NCBI RefSeq assembly: GCF_007120195.1
Contig: NZ_SKOG01000105.1
Span: forward strand, 1 to 51,286
Direction: 5' to 3'
From: Aquisalimonas sp.
Lineage (GTDB): Bacteria; Pseudomonadota; Gammaproteobacteria; Nitrococcales; Aquisalimonadaceae
Length of the DNA stretch: 51,286 nucleotides
The position numbers and the translations under genes are program-made. This document shows positions 1 to 50,636 of the stretch, piece by piece (within the stretch, counting starts at the first letter, position 1; the number at the start of each line of letters is the position of its first letter). Below the pieces are notes generated by a model that saw only the letters and a list, made by a program, of their open reading frames with translations, ran no database searches and was not told where the DNA came from.

Positions 1-127
1 CGGCCCTGACGGCCCCTGGCGGCGTTGCGCCTCCTCGCCGTAGTCCCCGCTACGCCTCGTCGGCGCGCCTTGCCAGGAACCGTCAGGATCCACGCCAATT
101 TTCGCAACTTATTTACGGGACGGGACA

Positions 128-1342
128 CTAGGAGGACGCTGGCTGCTTGGGTTGCCGACCGAAGAACCAGGGGCGAAGCCAGACGCCGGCCATATTGCCG
201 AGAAAGCCGAAAATCAGCCATACCCACCCGTGCAGACTGCCGGAGGCAATGCCGCTGAAATAGGCGCCGATGTTGCAACCGAAGGCGAGTCGCGCGCCAT
301 AGCCGAGCAGGAGGCCGCCGAGGATGGCCGCAAGCAGCGGTCGCAACGGCATGCGCAGGCTGGGTGCGAAACGCCCGGCGAGGGCTGCGGCCAGCAGGGC
401 ACCCAGGAGGATACCGATGTTCATCACTGAGGTTGCGTCGGCGACGATGCTGGCCTCCAGCGCCTGCGCGTTACCCGGGAGCTGCCAGTAGCCCCATTGG
501 CTGACATCGATGCCGATGCCCTGGAAAAGCTTGGCGCCCCACAGCGCAAACGCGGCGGTAATTCCCCAAGGCCGACCGGCGAGCAGCAGCGTGATGAAGT
601 TGAGCAGCGCGAGCGCGATCGCCCCCCAGATCAGCGGCCAGGGGCCGCGCAGGAAACGGCGCCAGCCGTCACGGGTACTGGCCGCCGGCTTTTCCAAATC
701 GCCATGGCGGCGTCGCTCCAGGCGTACGGTCAGCGCATAGATGGCCCCGAACAGGGCGAGGCTCAGGGCCAGGCCGCCGGTGAGGCCCAGGGAGTCCACC
801 AGTGACACGGCCTCGAACGCGGGTTGATCCCACCACCACTCCACATGATGGGTGGCGATGACCGAGCCCAGGATGAATCCGATCAGGGTAATGACCATGC
901 GCATGTTGCCGCCGCCGGCGGTAAACAGCGTACCGGAGGCGCAGCCGCCCCCGAGCTGCATGCCGATCCCGAAGATGAACGACCCCACGATCACTGCGGT
1001 GCCGATCGGGAACACAAAGCCATTGACAGGGTTGCCGAAGGCAAATCCGGCATCAAGCACCGGGAAAAACAGCACCACGGCCACAGCCAGCATGATCATC
1101 TGCGCACGCAGGCCTTGGCCACGGCGATCGGTAATGAATACGCGCCAGGCCGCGGTAAAGCCGAACGCAGCATGGTAGAGGACGACACCCAGCGCACCAC
1201 CCACCACAAACAGGGCCGACTGGGTCAGGCTGATGGCCTGCCCGACATACAGCAGCCCAATGGCCAGCAGCGCCAGGGCCACCCAGCCTGCCGGATGCAT
1301 GCCGCCGGGTTGTGCGGACATCGCGTGGGGCGAAACGGCCAT
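128..1342 (-). CDS. YeeE/YedE family transporter (sulfur-transport domain), probable thiosulfate or related anion uptake
   Basis: Integral inner-membrane protein of 404 residues with about ten hydrophobic segments and very few charged residues in them. Two signature cysteine motifs are visible: GGGCASGTLF (Cys134) in the first half and AFGCNIGAYFSG near residue 350, the duplicated arrangement of the YeeE/YedE/TsuA family in which cysteines relay thiosulfate through the membrane. The start at 1342 has a GGAGAG ribosome site about seven bases upstream. Family members serve thiosulfate uptake, and some YedE proteins occur with selenium genes; because this window carries selA/selB and a selenoprotein, a selenium-related role is possible but the gene lies 45 kb away. 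The stop codon TAG sits in CTAGTGTCCC, matching one arm of the palindromic repeat found at other stop codons here. Family call firm, substrate uncertain. Confidence 0.85.
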   Translation of the reverse strand: MAVSPHAMSAQPGGMHPAGWVALALLAIGLLYVGQAISLTQSALFVVGGALGVVLYHAAFGFTAAWRVFITDRRGQGLRAQMIMLAVAVVLFFPVLDAGFAFGNPVNGFVFPIGTAVIVGSFIFGIGMQLGGGCASGTLFTAGGGNMRMVITLIGFILGSVIATHHVEWWWDQPAFEAVSLVDSLGLTGGLALSLALFGAIYALTVRLERRRHGDLEKPAASTRDGWRRFLRGPWPLIWGAIALALLNFITLLLAGRPWGITAAFALWGAKLFQGIGIDVSQWGYWQLPGNAQALEASIVADATSVMNIGILLGALLAAALAGRFAPSLRMPLRPLLAAILGGLLLGYGARLAFGCNIGAYFSGIASGSLHGWVWLIFGFLGNMAGVWLRPWFFGRQPKQPASS

Positions 1343-1501
1343 CGAATACTCTCCACGGTTTCGGTACGGCGCAGAGCCTACCGGTGTGACCGGGGCTATG
1401 TGAAAGGCTGGATGTGCCTATGGTTAGAACTAGGCTCGCGGGTAGAACGCTGCGTGCAGCGGGCGCCTGGCCAACACGCAACGCGCCAGCAGCGGCGCAG
1501 C

Positions 1502-2653
1502 TCATGCGCCCGGGTCTGGTTTGATGAACGGGCGCCGGCCGGGCAGGCCACGCGTTGCCAGCGTGGCGACGATCAGCATCCCGGTGATCGCCAGCACCAT
1601 GCTTGTCCAACTCGCTTGGCTGAAAAGTATCCCGGGCAGCCAGGCGCCCAGGGTGCCGCCGGCATAATAGGAGGCGATGTACAGGCCATTGACCACGCCC
1701 CGCCGGTCCGGGGCAAGGGCGTTAATCAACCCGGGCGCCGTTGCATGGACCAGGAACATGCCGCCGCAAAACACAATCATGACGGCGAATAGCAGGGGCA
1801 GCGAGGGGAGCAGAAAAGCAACGGTTGCCGTGAGGAACACGAGCAACCCCAGGCGGATAGTGCCGCGCTGACTCCCCGTCCACGCCGTGACGCGCCCGGA
1901 CGCCAGGGCCACCACAATGCCCATGAGATAGCCGCCGTAGAGCAGTGCGATCGTGTCCTCACCGATCCCGGGTTGCAGCTCTACGGCGCGGAAGGGCAAG
2001 TAGGTGAGCAGCGCGGCGAAGACAAAAAACACGCTGAAACCGATAAGGCAGGTGGGCGCCACCCCCGGGCGTGCCAGGACGCCGCGGCATTCCTGCCAGC
2101 GGATGCGGGTGGTGTTCGGCGGCTGATCACCGCGGAGTCGCAGCAGCAGCGGCCCCAGCAAGATTAAGGCAAGGCCCAGCAGCCAGAAGGCGGCTGGCCA
2201 CGTCCAGTACGTCGAGATCAGGCCGGCCAGCAGTCGGCCCAGGAAACCACCAAGCACCGTCGCGGCGATATAAGCCGCCAGGGTGGTTGCCAAGCGCTCC
2301 GGCGCGGTGCGCCCGGCGATGAATGTCATCAGTGCCGTTAGCGCCGCCGGGATCACCACGCCTTGCGCGACGCGCGAGGCGAGCAGCACGCTGAAACTCT
2401 CCGCCATGGCGAAGACGAGTTGCGCGAGACCGAGCAGAACGACCGAGAGTGCCATGATGCGCCGGGCGCTTAGGCGCTCCAACCACAGCCCGTAGAGGAT
2501 CGGTGCGACGCTGAGCGGCAGCAGTGTGCCGGTGATCAGCAGTGCCGCCCGGGTCTCGGGGACTCCGTGCGCCGCCGCAAGCAGTGGCAACAGGGGCTGA
2601 GGCGCATAGAGCGTACAGAAAACCAGCACAGTGGCCGTCAGCAGCAGCGGCAT
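1502..2653 (-). CDS. MFS transporter (12 transmembrane segments, drug/sugar efflux type)
   Basis: A 383-residue polytopic inner-membrane protein with the hydrophobic pattern of a 12-helix major facilitator. Between helices 2 and 3 is GLWLERLSARRIMALS, a form of the MFS motif A region, and a related segment follows in the second half (ASGRVTAWTGSQRG). General resemblance is to the YnfM-like efflux branch. I place the start at 2653 because the ATG is preceded by GGGAGA at seven bases and the protein then opens directly with the first membrane helix; the longer frame reaching 2776 has no helix or ribosome site and would run into dapE. Substrate cannot be told from sequence. It lies 34 bases downstream of dapE on the same strand and could be co-transcribed. 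Confidence 0.82.
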   Translation of the reverse strand: MPLLLTATVLVFCTLYAPQPLLPLLAAAHGVPETRAALLITGTLLPLSVAPILYGLWLERLSARRIMALSVVLLGLAQLVFAMAESFSVLLASRVAQGVVIPAALTALMTFIAGRTAPERLATTLAAYIAATVLGGFLGRLLAGLISTYWTWPAAFWLLGLALILLGPLLLRLRGDQPPNTTRIRWQECRGVLARPGVAPTCLIGFSVFFVFAALLTYLPFRAVELQPGIGEDTIALLYGGYLMGIVVALASGRVTAWTGSQRGTIRLGLLVFLTATVAFLLPSLPLLFAVMIVFCGGMFLVHATAPGLINALAPDRRGVVNGLYIASYYAGGTLGAWLPGILFSQASWTSMVLAITGMLIVATLATRGLPGRRPFIKPDPGA

Positions 2654-45268: not shown

Positions 45269-46705
45269 ATGTCCGCTTTGCCCGACGGTCTCATCGTGGT
45301 TGCCAAGCGCGACTGCCCGACTTGCACGCTCATCGAGCCCCTGCTCGGCGAGCTCGCGCGTGGTGGTCACGCGCTCACGGTCTACTCCCAGGATGAACCG
45401 GACTACGCCGCGGATGTTCCCAATGTGGTCCATGACCGGACCCTGGAGATCTCTTACCGTCTGAGCATCGAGTTCGTACCGACGCTGATCCGTGTCGAGC
45501 ATGGGCAGGAAGTCGAGCGTACGTATGGCTGGCATCGAGGTGACTGGCAGCAAATCACCGGTTGCCGGGGCCTGGGGCTGGCGCTACCGGAAATGCGTCC
45601 CGGCTGTGGTTCGAAGACACTGGATCCGGGGATTGCCGAGGCATTGGCGGTACGCTTCGGTGATGCCGGCCTGACGTCCCGCCAGATAACGCTGGGGGAA
45701 TTCGAAGATGCCATCGAAGCCTGTTTCGAGCGCGGCTGGACCGACGGGTTGCCAGTGGTGCCGCCCACGGGCGAGCGCGTGCTGCGCATGCTCCGCGGAA
45801 CTGGGCGTGCTGCCGATGAGCTGATCGGCCAGGTGCCTCCGGACCAGGCCCCATGCACCGTGGAAAAGGTTGCTGTCAATGCGGTGATGGCGGGTTGCAA
45901 ACCAGAGTACATGCCGGTGGTGCTCGCCGCCGTTGAGGCCGCGCTGGCGGAGGAGTTCGGCATGCACGGCGTACTGTGCACAACGATGTTCTGCGGCCCC
46001 ATGGTCGTGGTGAACGGACCAGTGGCCCGCGCCATCGGCATGAATTCCGGGGTTAACGCGCTGGGGCAGGGCAACCGTGCCAACGCTACAATCGGCCGCG
46101 CGCTGCAGCTTGTTGTCCGCAACGTGGGCGGCGGGCGGCCCGGCGAAGTGGATCGCGCCACTATGGGCACACCGGGCAAGTACACCTTCTGCTTTGCCGA
46201 GGCGGAGGATGATCGGTGGGAGCCGCTTTCCCAGCAACGGGGGTTCGCACCGGGGACATCCACAGTGACACTGTTCGCCGGCGAAGGGGTGCAGACCGTC
46301 GTTGACCAAAAGTCCCGCACACCCGAGTCTTTGGCGCGCACCTTTGCCGCCTGCCTGCGAACGGTGGACCATCCCAAACTGGCGATGGCCGCGGACGTCT
46401 TTCTGGCCGTCTCACCGGATCACTGCCGCGTGTTCACCGATGCCGGCTGGTCCAAGGCACGCCTGCTGGAGGAACTGGAGGGCCTGTTGCAGCTGCCGGG
46501 CGACGAGATGGTCACCGGCGCCAACGGCATCGCCGAAGGGCTACCGGCAAAGTTCGCCGGCGGCATGGTGCCCAAGTTCCGCCCCGGCGGCATTAACATT
46601 GTGCGCGTCGGTGGTACAGCCGGCCTGTTTTCAGCCATCATCCCGGGGTGGGCCGCCTCCGGTCCCACCGGATCAACGCCAGTAACAAGGGAGGTCAGTG
46701 TATGA
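45269..46705 (+). CDS. Thioredoxin-domain fusion protein, partner of UGSC selenoprotein
   Basis: Two-part cytoplasmic protein of 478 residues. Residues 1-90 form a thioredoxin/glutaredoxin-like domain with KRDCPTCTLI (Cys16 and Cys19) and a cis-proline in EFVPTLIRVEHG (Pro71). After a linker containing PGCGSKT (Cys113) comes a conserved domain of about 340 residues, with cysteine-bearing segments AVMAGCKPEYMPVVLAAVEA, LCTTMFCGPMVVVNG and glycine-rich AIGMNSGVNALGQGNRAN, whose function I do not recognise. The TGA stop overlaps the UGSC gene's ATG (ATGA), so the two are coupled. ATG 45269 has GGGGA about ten bases upstream; the frame is open further upstream to 44927 but without conserved features and across the promoter region. 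Probably delivers electrons to, or shares a substrate with, the selenoprotein. Confidence 0.75.
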   Translation: MSALPDGLIVVAKRDCPTCTLIEPLLGELARGGHALTVYSQDEPDYAADVPNVVHDRTLEISYRLSIEFVPTLIRVEHGQEVERTYGWHRGDWQQITGCRGLGLALPEMRPGCGSKTLDPGIAEALAVRFGDAGLTSRQITLGEFEDAIEACFERGWTDGLPVVPPTGERVLRMLRGTGRAADELIGQVPPDQAPCTVEKVAVNAVMAGCKPEYMPVVLAAVEAALAEEFGMHGVLCTTMFCGPMVVVNGPVARAIGMNSGVNALGQGNRANATIGRALQLVVRNVGGGRPGEVDRATMGTPGKYTFCFAEAEDDRWEPLSQQRGFAPGTSTVTLFAGEGVQTVVDQKSRTPESLARTFAACLRTVDHPKLAMAADVFLAVSPDHCRVFTDAGWSKARLLEELEGLLQLPGDEMVTGANGIAEGLPAKFAGGMVPKFRPGGINIVRVGGTAGLFSAIIPGWAASGPTGSTPVTREVSV

Positions 46706-47226
46706 CAGAGCCCGAAATCCTGCTCGATCCCACGGCCGAACGCACGGCCGCGGAGCGGCCCCGCGCGGCGCGGCCGCAGCGTCTTGAGGGGCTGACGGTC
46801 GGCCTGCTGGACATCTCGAAGCCGCGCGGGGACGTGTTTCTGGGACGCCTCGAGGAGCGATTCGGCGAGCGCGGGATTGAAGTCAAGCGCTACCGCAAAC
46901 CGACGTTTACCCGGATTGCTCCCACCGAGCTACAGCAGCAGATGGCGGCGGAATGCAGCGTGATCGTTGAAGGCCTGGCCGACTGAGGATCCTGCACGTC
47001 GTGCTGTATGCATGACATCGCGGATCTTGAAGGTCGGGACATTCCGGGAGTCGGCGTTGCGACCATTGAATTCGTTGAAGCATCGGAGATGCAGTCGCGT
47101 GCCCTGGGGTTCGAACCGGCGATGGTGTTCGTCGATCATCCCATACAGGATCGTAGCGACGCTGAACTACGTGAGCTCGCCGACGCGGCGCTGGAGGAAA
47201 TCCTGCGCAAGCTTACCGGGCGCTGA
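46702..47226 (+). CDS. UGSC-family selenoprotein (in-frame TGA read as selenocysteine)
   Basis: One frame of 174 codons runs from ATG 46702 to TGA 47224-47226 with a single internal TGA at 46984-46986. Read as Sec95 this gives LAD-Sec-GSCTSCCMHDIADLEG: the Sec-Gly-Ser-Cys motif of the UGSC (seleno)protein family, with further Cys98, Cys101 and Cys102. Sequence on both sides of the TGA is protein-like and in the same frame (before: LEGLTVGLLDISKPRGDVF; after: GVGVATIEFVEASEMQSRAL and VFVDHPIQDRSDAELRELAD). The family was predicted from marine metagenomes and has no known reaction. GGGAGG lies before the ATG, and the start overlaps the thioredoxin-fusion stop. selA and selB follow directly. Standard annotation would split or truncate it. 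Confidence 0.9.
46999..47023 (+). promoter_or_regulatory. Candidate bacterial SECIS element
   Basis: Bases 46999-47007 can pair with 47015-47023 (nine positions: six Watson-Crick, two G-U, one C-U mismatch) around the seven-base loop AUGCAUG. The loop begins 22 bases after the UGA, within the usual bacterial distance for the SelB-binding apical loop. A competing small hairpin GCACG/CGTGC (46994-47004 region) exists, so the fold needs testing. Confidence 0.45.
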
Positions 47227-47289
47227 TGCGCCGCCGGCCACCGGCAGGGGGCGGTGGTCCGCGTTTTGTTCACCGCACCGCAGGTCGCC

Positions 47290-48705
47290 ATGGCCGATGG
47301 GCGCGGCATGACAGGGGTGCATCCCGACGCCCGGAGCCGGCTGCCCGCCGTTGACACGGTGCTGGGCTGGCCGGCTATCGCTGCGCTTGTCAGCACGCAC
47401 GGCCGGCCCCTGATTGTGGAGGCCATACGGGAGGCTCTGGCCGCGCGGCGGCTTGTAAACGAGCCGGCCCCCGCGCAAGCGCTTGTCGACGATGTCGAGG
47501 CCCGGGTCCTCGCAGTCGTCGCACCGTCCCAGCGCAAGGTCATCAATCTCACCGGAACGGTGCTGCACACCAACCTCGGCCGCGCTCCGCTACCCATGGC
47601 GGCAATCGACGCCATGGTCGCGGTCGCCTCTGGCGCGTCCAACCTCGAATACAACCTCGACACCGGCAAGCGTGGCGATCGCGACGATCACGTGCAAGTC
47701 TGGCTGCGCCGCCTCACCGGAGCAGAGGCGGCGACCGTAGTAAACAACAACGCCGCTGCGGTATTGCTGACCCTGAACAGCCTCGCAAGACACCGGCAAG
47801 TGATTGTCTCTCGCGGTGAGTTGATCGAGATCGGCGGCGCATTCCGCCTGCCCGATATCATGGCGCGGGCAGGCTGCAAGCTGTACGAAGTCGGCACCAC
47901 CAACCGCACCCACCTGCACGACTACACCGAGGCCATTGGGCCGAGGACTGGGCTGGTGCTCAAGGCCCATACCAGCAATTACCGCATCGAAGGATTCACG
48001 GCGCACGCCGACGAGCGCGCGCTCGGCAAGCTGGCCGGCGAGCACGGTGTGCCCTTCGTCGTCGACCTTGGCGCCGGTACAGTCGTGGATCTCAGCCGCT
48101 TCGGGCTCCCGCGCGAACCCACGCCGGCGGGCACGCTGGCGAGCGGCGCGGACTTGGTCACCTTTAGTGGCGACAAGCTGCTGGGGGGTCCCCAGGCGGG
48201 GATTATTGCCGGCCGCGCCGATCTGGTGGCACGCATCAAGCGCAATCCCATGAAACGCGCCATGCGCTGCGACAAGGTAACGCTAGCTGCGCTGGAGGCC
48301 GTGCTGCGCCTCTACGGTGATCCGGATCGGTTGCTGGAGCATGTGCCGACACTGCGTCTGCTGGCCCGTCCTGCCTTGGAGATTCGCGCCTTGGCCGAGC
48401 GCTTGCGGCCGTTCGTCGCACAGTGGCTCGGCGGCGAGCAGACCCATGTTGAGGTGGTGTCGGTGGCGAGTCAGATCGGCAGTGGCTCGCTACCGGTGAA
48501 CCTGTTACCGAGCTTTGCCCTGCGCATATCACCTCCTGGGCACGTTGCGTCGGGCCGGGCACTCAAGCGCATCGCCGGTCGATTCCGTGCATTGCCGACT
48601 CCCGTCATCGGACGCGTCTCCGATGGAGCGTTCCTGCTGGACCTGCGCTGCCTTGAGGATGAGGCGGGATTTCGGGCGCTGTTCCAGCGCTCCTGCGCGC
48701 CATGA
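47290..48705 (+). CDS. selA: L-seryl-tRNA(Sec) selenium transferase
   Basis: PLP-dependent decameric enzyme that converts seryl-tRNA-Sec to selenocysteyl-tRNA-Sec with selenophosphate. Motifs: INLTGTVLHTNLGRAPLP, VVNNNAAAVLLTL, SRGELIEIGGAFRLPD, and the Schiff-base lysine in FSGDKLLGGPQAG. I start at ATG 47290, which puts that lysine at 296 (295 in E. coli); GTG 47254 or ATG 47308 are alternatives. 471 residues. It follows the selenoprotein gene by 63 bases and overlaps selB by ATGA, giving a selenoprotein-selA-selB operon. selD and selC are not in the window and must be elsewhere. Confidence 0.96.
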   Translation: MADGRGMTGVHPDARSRLPAVDTVLGWPAIAALVSTHGRPLIVEAIREALAARRLVNEPAPAQALVDDVEARVLAVVAPSQRKVINLTGTVLHTNLGRAPLPMAAIDAMVAVASGASNLEYNLDTGKRGDRDDHVQVWLRRLTGAEAATVVNNNAAAVLLTLNSLARHRQVIVSRGELIEIGGAFRLPDIMARAGCKLYEVGTTNRTHLHDYTEAIGPRTGLVLKAHTSNYRIEGFTAHADERALGKLAGEHGVPFVVDLGAGTVVDLSRFGLPREPTPAGTLASGADLVTFSGDKLLGGPQAGIIAGRADLVARIKRNPMKRAMRCDKVTLAALEAVLRLYGDPDRLLEHVPTLRLLARPALEIRALAERLRPFVAQWLGGEQTHVEVVSVASQIGSGSLPVNLLPSFALRISPPGHVASGRALKRIAGRFRALPTPVIGRVSDGAFLLDLRCLEDEAGFRALFQRSCAP

Positions 48706-50636
48706 TCATTGCCACTGCGGGTCACGTGGATCACGGCAAGACATCGCTGGTCAAGGCGCTAACCGGCGTTGATACCGATCGACTGGAGGAAGAGAAGCGG
48801 CGCAGCCTCACCATCGAGCCGGGGTTCGCCTATGTACAAGCCGGTAGCGACCAACTTCTCGGATTTGTCGATGTGCCTGGCCACGCGCGTTTTATCCGCA
48901 ACATGCTCGCCGGCATCTCCGTCCTGGACTTTGCCCTGTTGGTGGTCGCGGCGGACGATGGCCCCATGCCCCAGACCGCCGAGCACGTTGCCATTCTGGA
49001 GTTGCTCGGCCTGCAACAGGGTGCGGTCGCCATCACCAAGATCGACCGCGTAGCGCCTGGGCGTGTCGGGGCGGTGGCCGATGAGGTGGCAACCCTGCTG
49101 GCGGGCGGCCGGCTCCGTGAGGCACCAGTTTTTTCGGTCGCGCCGCCGATCGGCAGGGGGATCGCTGCGCTGCGGGATCACTTGCTGACGATCAGCCGCA
49201 CATTAGCTGCGCACCCAGCGAACGGGTATTTCCGCATGGCTGTGGATCGGAGCTTCACGCTCAGTGGCGTGGGCCGCGTGGTGACCGGCGCGGTGTCTGC
49301 GGGCACTACGCAGGTGGGCGATCAACTGGTGATCTCCCCCCAGGGCATCAGCGTGCGCATCCGCGGAATCCACAGCAACGGCCAGCGATCGGAATCGGCG
49401 CGCGCCGGGATGCGCTGCGCGCTCAATATCACCGCCAGCGACACCCGCCATGCGGAGGCGGGGCGTGGCGACTGGCTGGTGGCCGGACCGGCGCACGCGC
49501 CCACCGCGATGTTTGACACCCGGCTGCAGGTGCTTGCCACGGAGCAGCGACCCCTTTGCCATTGGGCACCCGTTCGCTTGCACATCGGCGCCGCGGCGGT
49601 GAACGCGCGCGCGGTTCCCCTGGAAGGCCGCCACATCGAGCCAGGCGCAATGGGTTTGGCGCAATTGGTGCTCGATTGCCCGATCAACGCCGTCCACGGT
49701 GACCGCTTCGTGCTGCGGGATCCATCCGCACAGCGGACCGTCGCCGGAGGCCTCGTTGTCGACCCATTCGCCGTGAAGCGGGGACGCAGCAAACCCGAAC
49801 GCCGCGCGCGGCTGTCCGCCATGTCAGGCTCGACACCGCGAGGTGCGCTGTCGGCGTTGCTTGCCATCGACTCGGCGGGAGTCAATCTCGATTGCTTCAC
49901 CCGGGCTTACAACCTCACGCAGGAAGAGGCGCAGACGCTCTACCAGGCATTGCCGATGCAGCGCATTGTTCACGGTGAGGGTGCGATCGGCCTGACACCC
50001 GGCCACTGGCAGGCCCTTCGCGAGCGCGTGCGCGCGGCACTGCACGATCAGCACGCTCAGCACCCGGCGAGTCTCGGCCTGAGTGAGGCTGCGCTGGTGA
50101 CCAGGCTTGGTGAGATGGACGCGCCCCCGGCGATCCGTGCGGCCATCCGCTCGATGTTGGCACAAGGCGAGGCGGTTCGCGATGGTTTCAGCCTGCGCCT
50201 GCCCGATCATCAGCCGCGTCTGTCCACAAGCGATGCCGCGCTGCTGGAGGCCGTTTGCGAGGTGCTGCGCTGCGCCAACTTACGGCCGCCGGTCGTCGGC
50301 AAACTGGCTGAATCGCTCGAGATGGAACAGATAGCCCTTCGCGAGTCCCTGGAACGTTTCGCCCATCTGGGTTATCTCGTGCGTGTGGCACCCAACCGCT
50401 TTTTCCTGCCGGAAACCTTGGCGGCACTGGCGCGTATCGCGGCCGAACTTGCCGCTGAGTCGCTGGAGGGGACGTTCGATGCGGCCGCCTATCGCGACCG
50501 CTCCGGCATCGGGCGTAACGTCACCATCCAGGTGCTGGAATTCCTGGATCGCGCCGGCATCACGCGATTCGCCGGGGATCGGCGCAGCATGGCACCGGGA
50601 GCCGTTGCGTACCACGGCGGTGCTGGTACTGTGTAG
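48702..50636 (+). CDS. selB: Selenocysteine-specific elongation factor SelB
   Basis: GTPase that brings selenocysteyl-tRNA to ribosomes at UGA codons followed by a SECIS hairpin. EF-Tu-like domains 1-3: P-loop GHVDHGKTSLVKAL at the N-terminus, switch-2 DVPGHARFIRNML, ITKIDRV, and the selenocysteinyl-specific domain 2 and 3 strands; then four winged-helix domains (about residues 380-644) that bind the SECIS RNA, with the last ending YRDRSGIGRNVTIQVLEFLD in the conserved form RSGIGRN. 644 residues, close to E. coli (614). Start overlaps the selA stop. Confidence 0.96.
   Translation: MIIATAGHVDHGKTSLVKALTGVDTDRLEEEKRRSLTIEPGFAYVQAGSDQLLGFVDVPGHARFIRNMLAGISVLDFALLVVAADDGPMPQTAEHVAILELLGLQQGAVAITKIDRVAPGRVGAVADEVATLLAGGRLREAPVFSVAPPIGRGIAALRDHLLTISRTLAAHPANGYFRMAVDRSFTLSGVGRVVTGAVSAGTTQVGDQLVISPQGISVRIRGIHSNGQRSESARAGMRCALNITASDTRHAEAGRGDWLVAGPAHAPTAMFDTRLQVLATEQRPLCHWAPVRLHIGAAAVNARAVPLEGRHIEPGAMGLAQLVLDCPINAVHGDRFVLRDPSAQRTVAGGLVVDPFAVKRGRSKPERRARLSAMSGSTPRGALSALLAIDSAGVNLDCFTRAYNLTQEEAQTLYQALPMQRIVHGEGAIGLTPGHWQALRERVRAALHDQHAQHPASLGLSEAALVTRLGEMDAPPAIRAAIRSMLAQGEAVRDGFSLRLPDHQPRLSTSDAALLEAVCEVLRCANLRPPVVGKLAESLEMEQIALRESLERFAHLGYLVRVAPNRFFLPETLAALARIAAELAAESLEGTFDAAAYRDRSGIGRNVTIQVLEFLDRAGITRFAGDRRSMAPGAVAYHGGAGTV

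Follow-up and report, generated by a model that had tools for sequence, protein, structure and literature searches.

A UGSC-family selenoprotein and its regular upstream partner in Aquisalimonas: a candidate two-component, thioredoxin-driven selenoreductase

The window analysed here is the whole of a stretch of 51,286 nucleotides from the gammaproteobacterium Aquisalimonas sp. (contig NZ_SKOG01000105.1 of assembly GCF_007120195.1), and this report concerns a tightly packed operon on its forward strand, with the gene order UP (45269-46705), UGSC, selA and selB, in which UGSC encodes a selenoprotein and UP is its upstream partner gene. The UGSC gene (46702-47226) forms a single open frame of 174 residues (46702-47223, with the terminator TGA at 47224-47226) if the TGA at 46984-46986, within the motif LAD-U-GSCTSCC, is read as selenocysteine (Sec) at residue 95. 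A ribosome-binding site, GGAGG (46690-46694), lies 7 bases ahead of the ATG at 46702. Both curated models of the family span the TGA, NF041046 with 139.8 bits (cut-off 125; residues 30-172) and PF24696 with 139.2 bits (cut-off 25; residues 7-172). The original prediction for this DNA, a UGSC selenoprotein with a good ribosome site at 46702-47226, was correct in its coordinates and its start signal, and both models bear out the family it named.

Homologous loci (written L with a number) were collected from genome contigs, and the best 80 of 125 relatives were kept; the remaining 45 are not in the counts given below. Codon 95 is TGA in all 80 kept loci, and because the peptide patterns used in the search contained residue 95 in no case, this conservation is not due to chance. 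The ratio of nonsynonymous to synonymous substitution rates (dN/dS) is about 0.12-0.25 ahead of the TGA (codons 31-94) and 0.13-0.26 beyond it, over 11 comparisons that include 8 distinct ones. The four columns of the motif [U/C]GSC, with Sec written as C, are invariant both in alignment A1 (39 rows: the window's protein and 38 loci picked from 89 UGSC entries, L001, L086 and L090 being repeats) and in alignment A7 (22 UGSC sequences picked for diversity), and much of the second half of the protein is conserved in A1; L003, L087 and L125 are absent from both. Translation table 11 lists two open reading frames (ORFs) on either side of the TGA as a plain stop, as expected of a decayed or truncated gene, but all 80 kept homologues have the TGA, the protein is conserved before and after it, and dN/dS is equal on either side, so this explanation can practically be dismissed. 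The original prediction had named homologues that end at the TGA, or lose conservation after it, as what would refute it, and the kept homologues do neither. Judged from the sequence, the TGA is a sense codon read as Sec95.

Cys takes the place of Sec in L087 and L088 and at seven loci on plasmids (L118-L121, L124, L126 and L129), while L122 and L127 retain the TGA. A natural fusion of UGSC with the partner domain described below (L003) has the motif USSC, that is, U followed by SSC. The expectation that every homologue would carry Sec or Cys at this position held for all residues read but one, since the fusion protein of Vibrio europaeus (L125) has MGTS at the motif, neither Sec nor Cys, and scores 24.9 bits against the 25-bit cut-off. 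In genome G537 the Cys-form UGSC of L087 (1486-1905, reverse strand; HCGSC) has a TGA where its relative L002 has Trp, which may reflect an error, a nonsense mutation or a second recoding.

Directly at the Sec codon lies a predicted bacterial selenocysteine insertion sequence (SECIS) stem-loop (46984-47028), with an apical stem formed by 46998-47004 and 47010-47016 and a loop at 47005-47009. As a rule, bacterial SECIS apical loops carry a G. The fold around the TGA is unusually stable in a span of 63 nucleotides (z -4.24, 0 of 200 shuffles as good) and in one of 43 (z -2.34, 4 of 200). Across an alignment of 65 sequences, from which L087, L088 and L090 were left out as Cys forms, the two strands of the apical helix pair in 98.0% of cells, and 40 cells change on both sides compared to 18.6 in shuffles. 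A covariance model built from these 65 sequences, the window's included, gives the window's stem 72.4 bits, with the next match in the window at 8.5 bits, and scores two Sec loci outside the training set at 51.9 and 49.9 bits. Of the nine Cys loci, five give no match at the motif and the other four do, with 42.3, 30.2, 22.3 and 14.4 bits; no Rfam family matches the stem-loop. Several results weaken this picture: over 81 nucleotides the z value is just -1.46 (19 of 200 shuffles as good), two of five covariation measures are no better than in shuffles, and the codons explain part of the stem, because L118, a Natrinema locus with the Cys form, reaches 42.3 bits in the SECIS model and L003, a fusion with Sec, gives no score. 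Taken together with the Sec machinery considered below, the sequence evidence strongly supports decoding of Sec95 from the TGA by means of a SECIS.

The upstream gene UP, which the original prediction left out, encodes a protein of 478 residues (AlphaFold2 (AF2) model with a predicted local distance difference test (pLDDT) score of 88.6) and is a regular partner of UGSC. It is found in 79 of 80 loci, L039 being cut by a contig end, and two loci (L031 and L077) hold it in pieces. In the window its stop codon overlaps the UGSC start (ATGA); exactly this 4-base overlap recurs in 58 of 79 loci, and the two genes lie within 60 bases of each other in 76 of 79, the exceptions being L031, L079 and L081. 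Residues 1-99 are predicted to be thioredoxin-like by structure match (Z about 10) and carry a CPTC redox motif (C16 and C19; 45314-45325), with C-x-T-C in 32 of the 37 rows of the UP alignment A3 and gaps in the other five; L077, misaligned in alignment A2, and L003, a partial frame, had been dropped from A3. The remainder, about 350 residues from around residue 120 to 478 (45626-46702), is a domain without a family name that we call domain X. Eight of its residues, D159, C210, H233, N249, N285, D295, C308 and E311, are each present in 35 to 37 of the 37 rows. No Pfam or NCBIfam model matches domain X, and its best Foldseek match in the PDB, fumarase class I, is weak (E 2e-3, template modelling score 0.23). 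As a relative of PrdA, the pyruvoyl protein of D-proline reductase, it was rejected (hhalign 0.1% in both directions, with three PrdA sequences).

The association of UGSC with domain X is strongly supported. Forms of UGSC that lack a fused thioredoxin (Trx) domain are seen with X in either gene order. The phylum search gave five genomes with UGSC, among them the window's, and X adjoins UGSC in all five; in a separate draw of 299 genomes it was found in four, all with UGSC, and a fifth match touches the Trx part only. On plasmids, X lies within 0.5 kb of UGSC in seven of seven UGSC records. Five X matches that tblastn had left unpaired with UGSC were opened, and in four of them UGSC adjoins X or is fused to it; Haladaptatus halobius, where X stands without a UGSC annotated beside it, counts against a strict pairing. 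This near-constant partnership is new here. Three further arrangements were observed: the natural UGSC-X fusion of L003 (500-2209; USSC) has a partial thioredoxin reductase gene ahead of it, the UGSC-X fusion on a Vibrio europaeus plasmid (L125, 7323-9008) lies near aconitase X and DUF126 genes, and a Halorientalis plasmid (L120, 7851-10513) has one Cys-form UGSC between two X genes (X-UGSC-X).

Downstream of UGSC, as the original prediction had it, are the two dedicated Sec genes: selA (47254-48705, forward strand), encoding L-seryl-tRNA(Sec) selenium transferase (TIGR00474, 556.4 bits), and selB (48702-50636, forward strand), encoding the Sec-specific elongation factor (TIGR00475, 363.9 bits) and overlapping selA by 4 bases. 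The longest selA frame opens with GTG 27 bases past the UGSC stop, and in-frame ATG codons at 47290 and 47308 are alternative starts. The gene for tRNA-Sec is present in the same genome (G000:C22; 77.4 bits, gathering threshold 47). No SelD match above the cut-off was found in the window's genome, where the AIRS_C matches fall in PurM, HypE, ThiL and a frame of 1302 residues that was taken as PurL, all named by reading. In the relatives L007 and L023 a frame of the Ndh-SelD fusion type lies downstream in the same locus, and in the window's genome a contig of 4446 bases (C11) holds the Ndh half (68% identity) of a fusion of this type from 3458 to the contig end at 4446. Since the Ndh half is cut by the contig end, SelD, which seems absent from the assembly, has probably been lost to the assembly gap after C11. 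A congener (G788) has a near full-length Ndh-SelD match (C12:226822-229062) without a UGSC match or selA above the cut-off, and perhaps keeps Ndh-SelD for another selenium use.

UGSC was searched for in 59 relatives, and selA in 24 of these, namely all seven UGSC positives and 17 others. UGSC is above the cut-off in seven of the 59, the window's genome included, while an eighth genome (G802) gives a match of 20 bits, which is below the cut-off, and its occurrence is patchy within the genus (three of five genomes). Among the 24 genomes tested, selA is above the cut-off in exactly the seven with UGSC, each time on the same contig and adjoining UGSC. In this lineage the link between UGSC and selA is all-or-none, which is new here. 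Among the 77 testable loci, selA lies directly downstream of UGSC in 48, selB alone in 8, and neither in 22; those with neither include the loci titled Chloroflexi, Anaerolineae and Deltaproteobacteria, and one, L080, which is titled otherwise, is not among them. At the level of genes, the claim that the decoding machinery is tied to UGSC is upheld by the 48 of 77 loci with selA and the 8 more with selB alone, and by the shared occurrence in seven of 24 genomes. UGSC is rare in the genomes sampled: it was found in 3 of 274 genomes of the class, the window's own being the one that passes the NF041046 cut-off, and a sample of the phylum gave 5 of 398, again counting the window's own. That UGSC and selA occur in the same genomes suggests that retention of the 21st amino acid in a lineage can hinge on a single enzyme.

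The same co-occurrence could be read differently, with UGSC as an accessory of selenium metabolism, serving selenium delivery or sensing, in place of a catabolic enzyme, and the link to selA-selB following from that role. The presence of UGSC and selA above the cut-off in the same seven of 24 related genomes would fit, but in haloarchaea, Arthrobacter and Variovorax Cys-form UGSC stands with X among catabolic genes, these loci show no sel gene within 8-9 kb in their (incomplete) gene tables, and neither selA nor selB is directly downstream in the 22 loci mentioned above. We regard an accessory role as very improbable.

The motif of GrdB prompted a comparison of UGSC with the Sec-containing reductases. 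When 22 UGSC members were searched against 18,950 NCBIfam models, seven models matched at E values up to 10, and five of these belong to the reductases: gly_red_sel_B (12 of 22 members, best E 0.0023), GrdF (7 of 22, 1.3e-4), PrdB (4 of 22, 0.033), various_sel_PB (3 of 22, 0.031) and GrdH (2 of 22, 0.0015). The other two are UGSC itself and Ada (one member). Outside its own family, the closest curated relatives of UGSC are the Sec modules of the glycine, sarcosine, betaine and D-proline reductases. Conversely, 5 of 14 PrdB/GRDB proteins match PF24696 in Pfam, with a best E value of 0.0039. A profile-profile comparison of UGSC (A7) with the reductases (A8) gave 71.3% (E 3.6e-5, score 42.0) with Sec aligned on Sec; as controls for this score, 120 column shuffles reached at most 19.5 (0.9%) and the reversed profile 21.2 (1.1%), and SelA, SelB or the Trx domain gave at most 1.7%. 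Against PrdB alone the values were 67.9% or 87.9% depending on direction, and against GRDB-like proteins alone 34.5% and 68.1%.

A number of results weigh against a relationship of UGSC with these reductases. The strong profile value rests on the diverse alignments A7 and A8, which were made after first, shallower comparisons had given 8.5% and 1.6%; it falls to 39.1% when query and template are swapped and to 12.6% when the four motif columns are masked, and unrelated profiles reach 23.5 (X against the reductases, 1.0%), above the shuffle maximum of 19.5. The two GRDB-like proteins that bear Sec gave, on their own, 3.2% and 14.8%. The TIGR01917 model scores 11.3 bits on the window's protein against a cut-off of 602.2, PF07355 matches none of the 39 UGSC members in Pfam, and 3 of 14 PrdB/GRDB proteins match Asparaginase with a best E value (0.0015) lower than that for UGSC. 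No solved PrdB or GrdB relative was found by profile search, the one match being a designed protein. On balance it is quite likely, as far as profile similarity goes, that UGSC and the Sec modules of GrdB and PrdB share ancestry, a proposal that is new here, and with moderate confidence the UxxC Sec module of UGSC itself can be called a profile relative of those of GrdB and PrdB. A further locus, L106, from a genome of the window's phylum, has a protein of the PF07355 (GRDB) family whose frame contains a TGA (739-1983, reverse strand; PV-U-PFC) directly ahead of a SelA-like frame named by eye (1-720, reverse strand), and by its sequence is another Sec reductase family beside selA.

The AF2 model of UGSC (pLDDT 92.1) has five alternating strand-helix units with Sec95 placed just ahead of the start of a helix. 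Its PDB matches, among the 50 rows each that Foldseek and VIA listed, are mostly of the flavodoxin, TIR, lumazine synthase, CheY and periplasmic-binding types, and the fold is predicted to be flavodoxin- or Rossmann-like; UGSC itself has no solved relative at E under 0.1. In 2008 UGSC had been guessed to have a thioredoxin fold (PMC2398784, in the passage available), and a thioredoxin-fold selenoprotein would suit both the UxxC motif and a title cited in PMC3091704 that reports peroxidase activity of GrdB. The alternating units of the model argue against it, as do the lack of a thioredoxin among the matches listed, the failure of thioredoxin Pfam models to match any of the 39 members of A1, and the CoA-transferase, lyase and TRAP (tripartite ATP-independent periplasmic) genes that neighbour members without Trx. 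The matches listed for the model are other alpha/beta folds, and a thioredoxin-fold reading of UGSC was set aside as unlikely, if less so than an accessory role.

The neighbourhoods of UGSC offer indications of an electron supply. The gene order is trxB-trxA-X-UGSC in Arthrobacter and X-UGSC-trxB in Roseovarius, and trxB lies near X-UGSC in Variovorax. Hidden Markov models place genes of the thioredoxin reductase (TrxR) type near UGSC in L003 (a partial gene), L119, L121, L124 and L126, with L119, L121 and L124 above the curated cut-off, and in L089 one was recognized by eye; L129 is without annotation. Thioredoxin as the general reductant is less easily reconciled with the listings of L118, L120, L122, L125 and L127, which contain no TrxR gene, and with the short loci L002, L084 and L087, where a scan for the TrxR motif found none. 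Around the Trx-free type are TRAP or tripartite tricarboxylate (TTT) transporter proteins, CoA-transferases, and lyases of the phosphoenolpyruvate (PEP) mutase and other families, and these neighbours may point to small organic acids as substrate. For loci with the Trx-X form, a scan of 69 of 112 candidate ORFs, covering the first 25 of 63 families, showed no recurrent substrate gene, and in IMG/VR no UGSC or GRDB relative was confirmed. In the window a lone gene for the TRAP solute-binding protein DctP (PF03480; 43929-45047, reverse strand) lies divergent from the operon, and Roseovarius and Halorientalis also have TRAP proteins close to UGSC; as a fixed part of the system DctP was rejected, as it is in the ORF sets of 1 of 80 loci.

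The original prediction left the kind of enzyme open. Two statements, taken jointly, seem to us rather more probable than their alternatives: that 45269-47226 encodes a two-component, thioredoxin-driven selenoreductase in which UGSC serves as a free-standing Sec module, Rossmann-like and of GrdB/PrdB stock, and that in this lineage the operon carries its own selA-selB, the Sec system being kept and lost together with UGSC. In such an enzyme domain X would bind and activate an imported small organic acid, after which the selenolate of Sec95 would attack the substrate and cleave a bond reductively. The presumed resolving residue Cys98 (46993-46995) would then resolve the intermediate, leaving a Se-S bridge that the CPTC thioredoxin domain would reduce, a task that separate TrxA and TrxB would take over in other operons. 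Domain X would take the place of the pyruvoyl proteins of proline and glycine reductase, PrdA and GrdE; since it is not PrdA-like (0.1%), substrate activation would have to differ from that in D-proline reductase. While the UGSC family was known, the two-component mechanism is, as an interpretation, new. More tentatively, and at somewhat less than even chances, UGSC and X may constitute an undescribed class of glycine/proline-reductase-like selenoenzymes in non-clostridial bacteria and, as Cys forms, in haloarchaea, with the Sec module on its own, an unrelated domain (X) standing in for the pyruvoyl subunit, and thioredoxin as a fused part; this proteobacterial lineage may have its Sec system on account of that enzyme, inherited or lost as one operon.

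In the passages available, UGSC ranks fifth by sequence number in the selenoprotein table of the Global Ocean Sampling data, with 255 sequences (PMC2398784), and a 2026 review gives it no function. Neither a function nor a link to GrdB or PrdB is mentioned in the passages of PMC2398784, PMC13188914, PMC9312934, PMC7539508, PMC9402790, PMC5029168, PMC5330540, PMC1088965 and PMC3091704, which accords with the earlier statement that the family is known without a biochemical role. GrdB/PrdB stock, a regular partner of unnamed fold and thioredoxin would together give UGSC a concrete reaction type, and the pairing of UGSC with UP offers a candidate complex to purify, just as the gene context offers clues to the substrate.

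Compared with known systems, the window's protein lies above the cut-offs of both family models (PF24696 and NF041046) across its TGA and does not differ from UGSC at the family level. In ocean metagenomes UGSC was described as fused to a domain called 'Unknown_1' (PMC2398784, in the passage available); this may be domain X, and the natural UGSC-X fusion L003 is of the same kind. In D-proline reductase, according to the passages of PMC3091704, the pyruvoyl group of PrdA binds the substrate, the selenolate of PrdB could attack the alpha carbon, and the selenoether would be split by a cysteine of PrdB, with the selenol to be restored by an electron carrier. PrdB (TIGR04483, PF07355) has UGTC where UGSC has its own motif, at the same place in a strand-helix module and with Sec aligned on Sec in the profile match; unlike PrdB, UGSC falls below the cut-off, the match leaves its first half uncovered, and its partner is Trx-X in place of the pyruvoyl protein PrdA. 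The curated models of GrdB, GrdF and GrdH, the selenoproteins B of glycine, sarcosine and betaine reductase, match UGSC members weakly but repeatedly, the matched part of the window's protein being residues 81-151, around Sec. The GrdB model has 431 positions, UGSC 174 residues, and the annotated UGSC locus listings that were opened contain no GrdA, GrdC or GrdE. The electron chain of glycine reductase runs from TrxR through Trx and GrdA to GrdB (PMC3091704, in the passages available), and TrxR and Trx genes likewise lie near some UGSC loci.

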